DNA of 11,410 nucleotides from NCBI GenBank assembly GCA_011042755.1, contig DRBY01000076.1:1-11410 (forward strand). The letters run 5' to 3'. The position numbers and the translations under genes are program-made. This document shows positions 3,572 to 10,669 of this stretch, in pieces (position 1 is the stretch's first letter; each line of letters opens with the position of its first letter). Below the pieces are notes generated by a model that was given only the letters and a program-made list of their open reading frames with translations, was not told where the DNA came from and did not search any database. The DNA comes from Thermoproteota archaeon (GTDB taxonomy: Archaea; Thermoproteota; Korarchaeia; Korarchaeales; Korarchaeaceae).

Positions 3572-3583
3572 ACCCTCGAGGGT
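3572..3583. repeat. 12-bp perfect palindrome abutting the structured RNA element
   Basis: ACCCTCGAGGGT is self-complementary and touches the 3' end of the minus-strand element at 3584. The second copy also has a perfect palindrome close to the same end (ATCGGCCGAT, 10583-10592), although the sequences differ. It may be a weak 3' hairpin of the RNA; no convincing T tract follows on the minus strand. Confidence 0.4.
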
Positions 3584-3654
3584 GGGAGAGCGACCCTACC
3601 CCCAGTTGCCCAGGTTTCAGGCCGCATCCGCCTTGCGGGCGGAGTTACCCTCCC
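3584..3654 (-). ncRNA. Putative structured small RNA, copy 1 (71 nt)
   Basis: On the minus strand the first eight bases GGGAGGGT pair with the last eight GCTCTCCC, including two G-U wobbles, to close the molecule. TCCGCC...GGCGGA forms an internal 6-bp hairpin over a CGCAA loop. The remaining stretch (GGCCTGA to GGGTAGGG) can form a weak third helix around GGGCAACT. A nearly identical 70-nt copy lies at 10600-10669. The copies differ at about six positions, one of them an A-U to C-G swap that keeps the closing stem. A TATA box (3677-3684) is centred about 26 nt before the first stem base. It is not a tRNA (no T-arm consensus) and I do not recognise it as SRP, 5S, C/D or H/ACA RNA. It could be a free small RNA or a leader element; the next minus-strand start is about 200 nt away. 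Confidence 0.6.
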
Positions 3655-4703: not shown

Positions 4704-6089
4704 ATGACGGGGTCCGAGATCCCTCCCACAGAGCAGGGAGAAATTGAGTTGGGAATTCCTGGGTTCGACGACGCTCTCGGTAAGCTGCCAAGAGGTTTCG
4801 TTTTGTGCGTTCTTGGCGGCCCCGGGGTGGGGAAGACCGTATTTGGCATTCAGGCGGCCTGTCACGCGGCCTCGCAAGGGAGGAAGGTTCTGTACGTGAC
4901 CGTCGCGCAGGACTCGCTCTCTCTTAAGAGGCAGGCCGCCTCCCTGGGCAGGGACCTGAGCAAGCTCGAGCAGAGCGGCTTCCTGAAGATCCATCACATA
5001 CCGGCCCCAGTAGACGCGAGCGAGTCCCAGCAGACCCTCGTGGATCTCAAGTATGAGGTGGAGTCCCTCAGCCCAGACATCCTCATCATCGACGGCGCGG
5101 CGGCCCTCGCGAGAGAACTCACCTCGTCGGCTCTCATCGGGATGGTCGGAAGGGGCATCTTTCAAGTGGTTCGGGATCGCGGTATCTTGCTCATCGCTCT
5201 ACTCGACGAGGGGATCTTAGAGCAGAACTTCGACCTGAAGCAGTGCGCTATGAAGAATAGCGACGTCGTCCTGTGGTTCGGGTGGAGGAGCGTGGGTAAG
5301 CTGAGGGTCAGATCGGCTAGAGTGCTGAAGGCTAGAGGGATCGATGTGAAGAGGCCGGAGTGGGGCTTCGCCATATCTGGCGTATCCGGGGGCATTGGCA
5401 CGCTATTCATCCCAGACAGCCTAGACCACGTCCCCAGGAGGGAAGGGTTCCTCAGCACGGGGTTGCCAGGTCTAGACGAGTTCCTGGGCGGAGGAATCCC
5501 CAAGGGCTCACTAACGCTGATCTTAGGTCCCACAGGCGCAGGAAAAGCCGAGTTGGCCTCTGCGATCGCCGCAAACCTCGCCAACCGAGGGCGCAGGGTC
5601 TTGATCCTGAGCTTCGAGCTGGTGAAGTCAGATGTGGAGGCCCTAGTTGAGGAGTTTGGCTTGCGGCCAGACCGCTCGAGTTACATAGACATTCACTCGT
5701 TGGAGCCGCAGGTCATTGACACGATAGATCAGCTGACCGGCGTCATGAAGAGGATAATCGAGTTCAGGCCAGAAGTCATCGTAACGCTTGGCTACGCCTC
5801 GCTGGAGATGTGGCTTGGGCTCGATGTGGCGCTGTACCTGATGAGGCACATGCAGTGCATGGCCAAGGTTAGGGATCTCACGATCCTAGTGACGGCGAGG
5901 GCCCGAGATCCGGAGGAACATGCTGAGACGTACGCTCACTATGCCGATCTAATCCTGAGCCTTAGGAGGGAAGAGGGAGAGGGTGTGAAGAGAGTAATCA
6001 CAGTCCTAAAGAGCAGGAACCCGGAACTCGAGGGGAGATCCGGCCTTCTGGAGATTAAGAGAGGGTCGATAAGGGTAATCCCCCGCTGA
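4704..6089 (+). CDS. KaiC-like ATPase with two RecA-type domains, second one degenerate
   Basis: This is a 461-residue soluble protein made of two tandem KaiC/RadA-like modules, each opening with the family's GIPGFDDALG- or GLPGLDEFLGGGIP-type segment. Domain 1 has an intact Walker A (GGPGVGKT, 38-45) and a Walker B ending in Asp130 (ILIID). Domain 2 has GPTGAGKA at 275-282, with Ala282 where Thr/Ser normally binds magnesium. Its Walker B equivalent (EVIVTLG, 357-363) has Leu362 aligned with the Asp. The FEE catalytic motif of KaiC is also altered in both (VAQDS and SFELV). Only domain 1 therefore looks able to bind nucleotide with Mg2+; domain 2 is probably structural or regulatory. Archaeal KaiC-like proteins act in signalling, often with motility or kinase partners; none is encoded nearby. 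It converges with the radical SAM gene. Confidence 0.88.
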   Translation: MTGSEIPPTEQGEIELGIPGFDDALGKLPRGFVLCVLGGPGVGKTVFGIQAACHAASQGRKVLYVTVAQDSLSLKRQAASLGRDLSKLEQSGFLKIHHIPAPVDASESQQTLVDLKYEVESLSPDILIIDGAAALARELTSSALIGMVGRGIFQVVRDRGILLIALLDEGILEQNFDLKQCAMKNSDVVLWFGWRSVGKLRVRSARVLKARGIDVKRPEWGFAISGVSGGIGTLFIPDSLDHVPRREGFLSTGLPGLDEFLGGGIPKGSLTLILGPTGAGKAELASAIAANLANRGRRVLILSFELVKSDVEALVEEFGLRPDRSSYIDIHSLEPQVIDTIDQLTGVMKRIIEFRPEVIVTLGYASLEMWLGLDVALYLMRHMQCMAKVRDLTILVTARARDPEEHAETYAHYADLILSLRREEGEGVKRVITVLKSRNPELEGRSGLLEIKRGSIRVIPR

Positions 6090-9851: not shown

Positions 9852-10415
9852 CTAGACGAGGGTCACTCCAGCGATGGCTAGGCCGATTCCAGTCCACTCG
9901 ATGGCAGTCATCTCCTCTCCGAGAAAGACCCAGGCGAGAAGGGCTATCTGGGCAGCATAGTGTTCTGAATTAGCGAGAGTTCGAAGGCTCGGACGTAGCG
10001 AAGAGCGCTGTTCCAGAGGAAGAAGACCAACGCAGAATTGACCACGGCGAGCCATGTCACAGTGGCTGCGATCTATGGGTGAGGGCCACAGCTCGCCACG
10101 CGTCGAGACCACCAAGGGAATGCCGAGGGCGACCACCATGACTGGCGTGGAATTCAAGAGGAAGGTAACCGTGGTCGCCGGCAGGAGCGACAGCTCAACG
10201 AACTGGAGCCCTTGCGCGATCGCAAAGGCAAGAATTCCCCGCGCGGTAGAGTCCCTGAGCTTCAGTCTCGCGTCCACACCGAGACCAGCAGATACCCTGT
10301 AGGCTGCGAACGTCAGGGGCGGCAGCTCCTCCACTTCCCACTTGATCAAGATGTGGGATGTGGATCGTGGGAAGGTCACAAGCAGGTCGTACGCCAGTCC
10401 TCTGCCTCTAGACAA
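9852..10415 (-). pseudogene. Degraded EamA/DMT-superfamily transporter
   Basis: An EamA transporter normally has about 290 residues and ten helices in two repeats. Here the start (TTG 10415) gives a recognisable first helix region (SHILIKWEVEELPPLTFAAY). There is then an apparent deletion, then helices 3-4 of repeat 1 (IAQGLQFVELSLLPATTVTF, then NSTPVMVVALG). After that most of repeat 2 is missing and the frame is lost near 10065-10085. In another frame typical repeat-2 sequence resumes (TWLAVVNSALVFFLWNSALR, then AFELSLIQNTMLP). It shifts back at the GGG/CCC run 9950-9952 to give QIALLAWVFLGEEMTAIEWT and a short hydrophobic end. Two compensating frameshifts plus internal deletions make a working transporter unlikely. 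The promoter survives. Sequencing error could explain the single-base shifts but not the missing helices. Confidence 0.8.
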
Positions 10416-10599: not shown

Positions 10600-10669
10600 G
10601 GGCGAGCGACCCTACCCCCAGTTGCCCGGAGTTCAGGCCGCATCCGCCTTGCGGCGGAGTTACCCGCCC
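10600..10669 (-). ncRNA. Putative structured small RNA, copy 2 (70 nt)
   Basis: This is the same element as at 3584-3654. On the minus strand GGGCGGGT pairs with GCTCGCCC over eight positions (two wobbles). TCCGCC-GCAA-GGCGGA is a 6-bp hairpin capped by a GNRA-type tetraloop. CTCC (minus-strand bases 39-42) can pair with GGGG (51-54) over GGGCAACT. Relative to copy 1, the fourth base pair is C-G instead of A-U, one C is absent beside the tetraloop, and three bases change around the third helix while mostly keeping pairing. The wobbles would be A-C mismatches, and the tetraloop would read UUGC, in plus-strand RNA, so the minus strand is the functional one if it is RNA. Its TATA box is centred about 26 nt upstream, and a hairpin with T tracts lies downstream. 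I cannot name the family. Confidence 0.62.

Follow-up and report, generated by a model that had tools for sequence, protein, structure and literature searches.

Two intergenic elements and their surroundings

The stretch of DNA that we analysed, here called the window, is 11,410 nt long with 59.9% GC and carries genes of an ordinary kind: adenylosuccinate synthetase, a CAAX-type protease, a methyltransferase, a PEBP protein, a double KaiC ATPase, a radical SAM protein, a Na/H exchanger, a PLP enzyme and an EamA fragment. Two intergenic elements lie between these genes and make up the largest direct-repeat family listed for the window. An earlier note on this DNA had proposed that they are a two-copy family of structured RNA encoded on the minus strand, and a repeat search recovers both of them on the same strand where that note had placed them. 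Their near-identity holds as well, with 65 of 70 aligned positions identical and one 1-nt indel in the whole-element alignment, and 93% identity over the ungapped 57-nt core found by the repeat search. The elements, with the helices, promoter-like boxes and possible tail discussed below, are as follows.

3584..3654, minus strand: putative RNA element copy 1, 71 nt (repeat search and fold)
3649-3654 with 3584-3589, minus strand: helix P1 of copy 1
3638-3643 with 3627-3632, minus strand: helix P2 of copy 1, with loop CGCAA at 3633-3637
3619-3625 with 3590-3596, minus strand: helix P3 of copy 1, with inner hairpin loop GCAA
3677..3684, minus strand: TATA box TTTAAATA of copy 1, 22 nt upstream of its first G
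3572..3583, minus strand: short 3' hairpin ACCCUCGAGGGU, a possible tail, directly after copy 1
10600..10669, minus strand: putative RNA element copy 2, 70 nt (repeat search and fold)
10664-10669 with 10600-10605, minus strand: helix P1 of copy 2
10653-10658 with 10643-10648, minus strand: helix P2 of copy 2, with loop GCAA at 10649-10652
10635-10641 with 10606-10612, minus strand: helix P3 of copy 2, with inner hairpin loop GCAA
10691..10698, minus strand: TATA box TTTAAATA of copy 2, 21 nt upstream of its first G

The surroundings of the two copies had been called unrelated, which is true of most of the flanking sequence but not of all of it, for AGTTTAAATA is common to both and ends 22 and 21 nt upstream of them. 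At both elements Rfam (4227 families) gives no match, in searches of the window at E up to 5 and of the later-found copies L096, L101 and L102 at E up to 3, and ARAGORN finds 0 tRNA genes in the window, L002, L096, L101 and L102; the impression that the elements match no known family is thus borne out. Within the literature covered, mainly titles and abstract openings together with part of PMC10469681 and mostly outside the subscription journals, nothing names such an RNA family.

Copies in related genomes

With the window's adenylosuccinate synthetase as protein query we found the close relatives L001 (80%), L002 (79%) and L012 (82% over 244 residues). A similarity search then locates two copies in L002, which belongs to genome G002 (isolate INS_M12_B43), one on either side of the adenylosuccinate synthetase gene:

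L002:9309-9377, minus strand: relative copy L2a
L002:12899-12967, minus strand: relative copy L2b

A covariance model built from these four copies finds one more in genome G001 (L096, E 3.6e-8) and two in G009 (L101 and L102), which are orthologues of the L002 copies, L2a pairing with L102 and L2b with L101. The description as a two-copy family therefore has to be given up. We count seven copies, which occupy five independent loci and are spread over four genomes; G002, G009 and the window have two each and G001 has one. Their lengths are 69, 69, 69, 70, 70, 71 and 82 nt. Two of the seven are near-identical orthologues (96-97%) of two others. The search of relatives that the earlier note had suggested has thus produced further copies and, as we describe below, further compensatory changes.

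The distribution of the family appears to be narrow. Across the 29 genomes of the phylum-level group of G002, accepted matches (E up to 0.05, up to 150 candidates scored per genome) occur in three, and a pattern of the core formed by P1, the J12 strand and P2, with up to 3 mismatches allowed, hits three of 26 genomes of the class, at known copies throughout, with 0 in the control. A relaxed core pattern yielded one extra 3-mismatch site, in G022 (L142), which was rejected as by eye its P2 loses half its pairs. In a set of 28 genomes (5 of the same group, 23 from outside it) there was no match at E up to 1, an empty result that carries no weight because the set contained no positive genome. The close relative G003, of unstated completeness, holds no accepted copy, and scanning the genome collection for exact matches to a window-specific stretch gave none. 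Several weak matches to the model, namely L098 and its apparent orthologue L105 (24.5 and 23 bits), L103 and L104 (19.2 and 18.3 bits), and L099 and L100 (19.6 and 15.7 bits), were not accepted because their E values of 0.08-9.5 per genome go together with helices that are partial or partly broken. The DNA upstream of L098 has no TTTAAATA-type box at 20-22 nt. As a separate observation, L098:1501-1558 and L105:1501-1558 (G002 and G009) have near-identical letters, and may be an unrelated hairpin or a decayed third copy.

Could the elements be DNA repeats that have been moved about? A non-autonomous mobile element or hairpin repeat (of MITE, REP-like or attC-like type), carried by a transposase or integrase, would explain why the window copies agree at 93% although most of their flanking sequence does not, and why the elements sit at different positions in the window and in L002 even though the two neighbourhoods are syntenic. 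We nevertheless regard such an origin as very improbable. No genome has more than two accepted copies, the orthologous copies occupy the same place in G002 and G009, and exact matches to the element patterns are absent from the viral contigs. The integron attC cores GTTRRRY and RYYYAAC are found in none of the seven copies, and no direct repeat of at least 7 nt brackets either window copy, although shorter target duplications would escape this comparison. The covariation of the paired positions, and a TATA box that is kept while the spacer behind it differs, also argue against mobility.

A three-way junction with compensatory changes

On the minus strand both window copies fold into a three-way junction made of P1, P2 (6 bp) and P3, the last with an inner hairpin; P3 was absent from the earlier description of the elements. 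The minimum free energies are -36.4 kcal/mol for copy 1 and -42.6 kcal/mol for copy 2, corresponding to z values against shuffles of -2.2 and -4.3 (-2.4 and -4.2 in a repeat computation), while on the plus strand the z values are -0.3 and -0.4, which is the level of the shuffles. The strand-specific pairing that had been proposed is therefore clear in the window copies. It is weaker in the relatives: the sense strand has the lower minimum free energy in all seven copies, but the antisense strand also beats shuffles at L002:12899-12967 (z -4.0), L101 (-2.9) and L096 (-5.3), and does so mildly in the remaining two relative copies (-1.9 and -2.0), so that strand preference alone is no proof.

The details of the closing stem are only in part as first described. 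Its fourth pair does change from A-U in copy 1 to C-G in copy 2, and the wobbles G6-U66 and U8-G64 are present in both. The stem of eight pairs is itself real, and the relatives are compatible with it, but its last two pairs compete with the first two of P3, and the minimum-energy folds of both window copies give a P1 of 6 bp and a P3 of 7 bp. Since G7-C65 and Y8-G64 as well as the alternatives G30-C65 and C31-G64 can form in all seven copies, covariation cannot choose between the P1 and P3 versions of these inner pairs. Pair 6-66 is G-U in five copies and the non-standard G-A in two; in the RNAalifold consensus, position 66 has 29 as its partner instead, a standard pair in four of the seven. 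The GCAA tetraloop that had been noted, a GNRA loop, is found as such in copy 2, whereas copy 1 has an extra C that makes its P2 loop the five-base CGCAA. Over all copies, three have GAAA as the P2 loop, three have CGCAA and one has GCAA, a strict GNRA tetraloop thus occurring in four of seven. For P3, five copies share the loop GCAA, L102 has ACAA, and L096 deviates from both.

Comparison of all seven copies supports one common fold, as would be expected of a structured non-coding RNA. In the seven-row alignment, which was fitted to the covariance model and is favoured by it, 98.8% of 161 pair cells are paired, seven of the 24 pairs show changes on both sides, and the covariation score is 0.284 versus 0.165 (sd 0.024) for shuffles. 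In 500 shuffles the pairing, the double changes and the covariation score of the real alignment are never reached; its number of further pair types is reached in 24. Sliding the pair partners lowers the pairing to 39-58%. The covariation is weaker when only the first four copies are used, in a MAFFT alignment: here 98.9% of 95 cells are paired and four pairs show double changes, with 7 of 500 shuffles reaching the pairing and the score, 34 the double-change pairs and 148 the further pair types.

The strongest single case is L096, where P2 reads UUCGCC-GAAA-GGCGAA compared with UCCGCC-GCAA-GGCGGA in copy 2, a C-G pair having become U-A. Its P3 is wholly replaced, starting with a different helix of 9 bp, GCACUCCUC/GAGGAGUGC, and continuing into a longer apical part, and still pairs. 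The fold of L096 has a z of -6.5 against shuffles, and its GC content is 54-56%, where the immediately adjacent DNA has 30-36% and the more distant gene reaches 48%. More generally, P1, the J12 strand (GGYAAC) and P2 with its GNRA-type loop form a conserved core that holds 26 of the 31 invariant alignment columns, while P3 is a variable arm, replaceable in sequence and length, whose hairpin is retained. The internal loop in P3 of the window copies, which we take to resemble a sarcin-ricin loop, was dismissed as a motif of the family because it is not kept in the relatives.

A protein-coding origin of this conservation fits poorly, for the lengths of the copies differ by non-multiples of three and none of the frames read from the first base stays free of stops throughout the seven copies, though L2a and L102 contain none.

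The fold also invites the thought of a new class of catalytic RNA, self-cleaving or other, given the compact three-way junction, the strongly conserved junction strand GGYAAC and the GNRA-type loop; such a fold is compatible with any function. The elements, however, match no Rfam ribozyme, the longest unpaired runs are at most five bases in the three folds checked (both window copies and L096), and the position of the promoter, suited to a start at the 5' end, agrees with a stable product, so that we consider catalysis very improbable.

Promoter-like boxes, neighbouring genes and a possible function

All seven copies have a TATA box 20-22 nt upstream of their first G. In six the box is TTTAAATA, which ends 22 nt (copy 1), 21 nt (copy 2), 22 and 20 nt (L002), 20 nt (L101) and 22 nt (L102) before that G; L096 has TTTTTATA, ending 22 nt before it. 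On either strand of the window TTTAAATA occurs at these two sites only, and in the 21,284 nt of L002 only at its two; in the 1.9 Mb of G002 it occurs 16 times on both strands, and the pattern read backwards 8 times. Simple arithmetic puts two chance matches within three spacings at the order of 1e-10, for a box that was chosen after looking. A pattern that joins the box to the 5' end, run on 29 genomes, finds the four copies already known from G002 and G009 and no others, with 0 in the control. The spacer between box and RNA differs between the window copies, and since the box is kept while the spacer is not, selection on a promoter is the simplest reading. The elements would thus have promoters of their own at a near-fixed distance, as expected of structured RNA genes.

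What else does this box serve? G002 and G009 have 24 other TTTAAATA sites, and two of these, orthologous to each other, lie 25 nt before tRNA-Thr on the same strand (one of the 14 in G002 and one of the 10 in G009): the tRNA-Thr(GGT) genes L119:1501-1607 (G002) and L133:1402-1508 (G009) have CTTTAAATA 25 nt upstream. Rfam finds only tRNAs at the 14 other sites of G002. The box can therefore serve a stable-RNA gene. Our elements share with archaeal tRNA genes their size (69-82 nt here), a TATA box 20-25 nt upstream, a GC-rich fold and, at the tRNA-Thr of G002 and G009, the box CTTTAAATA itself; unlike tRNAs they have a three-way junction rather than a cloverleaf, and are recognised neither by ARAGORN nor by the Rfam tRNA model.

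The 3' ends are less uniform. A short hairpin led by ACCCUC follows P1 in copy 1 and in the L002 and G009 copies, and tails resembling ACCCUCGAGGGU stand after L002:9309-9377, L002:12899-12967 and their orthologues, though not after copy 2 or L096. TTTT occurs within 40 nt downstream in two of seven copies, and there is no clear terminator. Over 10 pairs of downstream flanks, the similarity of copy 1 to L2b and of L2a to L2b is reached by about 0.02 of shuffles and that of copy 1 to L2a by 0.05, the rest being higher, all uncorrected.

Directly after one copy, at L002:12805-12890 on the minus strand and in the matching stretch of L101, we observed a second strongly folded region, with the architecture GGGGUCUC...GAGACCCC enclosing GCGCCUGA...UCAGGCGC. 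Element and following stretch together, 178 nt in L002, have a fold z of -5.6, and L101 differs at one base (by eye). Downstream of window copy 1 a 20-nt piece of this region (CAGGCTTTGYGGC...) is found again, a similarity reached by about 0.02 of shuffles in the comparison of 10 pairs. The stretch could encode a second RNA or belong to a longer transcript.

The neighbouring genes bear on whether the elements act in cis, as riboswitches or protein-binding elements in the 5' UTR of a downstream gene. A leader role would be possible at two of the five loci, where the downstream gene lies on the same strand: the EamA ORF about 185 nt from copy 2 and a KaiC/GvpD-like ATPase about 93 nt from L096. 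These two genes come from different families, and at the other three loci the next downstream gene is convergent (a methyltransferase at copy 1, a YdjM-like gene at L2b/L101 and KaiC at L2a/L102), so that the elements as a group do not lie upstream of same-strand genes. We also considered a switch based on displacement of P1 by the 3' tail ACCCUC; it could form in copy 1, but was discarded since by eye the pairing tail is missing in copy 2 and L096. A general leader function is therefore unlikely in our estimation.

Two side observations concern these neighbours. The EamA transporter ORF (window 9852-10415, minus strand) has only 187 aa with two partial domain matches, and may be a remnant. 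At three of five loci (raw count) a KaiC/GvpD-type ATPase gene is found no further than about 1.1 kb from the RNA, the KaiC-like gene beside the RNA being one long frame in G009 and in pieces in L002 (8180-9406):

window 4704-6089: KaiC/GvpD-type ATPase gene
L102:1219-2541: KaiC/GvpD-type ATPase gene (the long frame of G009)
L096:1675-2346: KaiC/GvpD-type ATPase gene

Archaeal small RNAs with their own promoters are often guides, and the elements resemble H/ACA and C/D guide RNAs in being small free-standing archaeal RNAs. A modification guide of C/D or H/ACA type, or another guide of unusual form, nonetheless seems to us highly improbable. Box C (RUGAUGA) is absent from all seven copies and CTGA is found in four, at differing places; ACA occurs inside one (L102) and in none within the first 20 nt after the 3' end. 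Moreover, the elements have no long unpaired stretch, runs in the window copies being limited to five bases as given above. Some likeness to the Alu domain of SRP RNA may be seen, presumably, in a GUAAC-like junction strand beside short GNRA-type hairpins. The elements differ from SRP RNA in having no Rfam SRP match and in occurring twice in three of the four genomes, and we also take them to be too short for an archaeal SRP RNA.

Thus the view that the elements are minus-strand RNA genes and not plain DNA repeats gains support from the further copies, the compensatory changes and the TATA box in all seven, and judged from sequence it is in our opinion highly probable. Very probably this is a real RNA gene family, apparently undescribed and restricted to one archaeal lineage, and we think it likely that each element constitutes a small non-coding RNA gene of its own, free-standing and encoded on the minus strand. 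Archaeal RNA polymerase would start at about the GGG downstream of the box, and the product would be a stable RNA of roughly 70-95 nt. Because pairing takes up about two thirds of its bases (48 of 71 in copy 1) and no unpaired run exceeds five bases in the folds checked, the RNA would most likely work by its shape, either within a ribonucleoprotein or as a regulator that binds protein and acts in trans, and not as an antisense guide. The short unpaired runs, with the convergent gene at three of five loci, lead us to favour a free-standing protein-bound RNA over a guide, a leader or a mobile repeat, and the paired share and the concentration of 26 of the 31 invariant columns in P1, J12 and P2 likewise make protein binding in trans the function that we prefer. 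We would put a trans-acting, protein-bound role at about even chances, the protein partner itself being something that we purely infer. More tentatively, the RNA might belong to a hitherto undescribed archaeal ribonucleoprotein whose P1-J12-P2 core is bound by a lineage-specific or repurposed protein, with the exchangeable P3 giving paralogues their specificity, as L096 might illustrate.

Orphan structured RNAs have been found by comparative genomics in bacterial genomes (PMC8632094). The likeness lies in covarying RNAs found from sequence; unlike those, the present family is archaeal and has a visible TATA box. Little work has so far been done on the small stable RNAs that uncultured, deep-branching archaea make, and this one has no Rfam match. 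With its short sequence, likely start, fold, paralogues and variable arm the family offers a defined target, which could be used to search hydrothermal-sediment metatranscriptomes and to fish for the protein partner.
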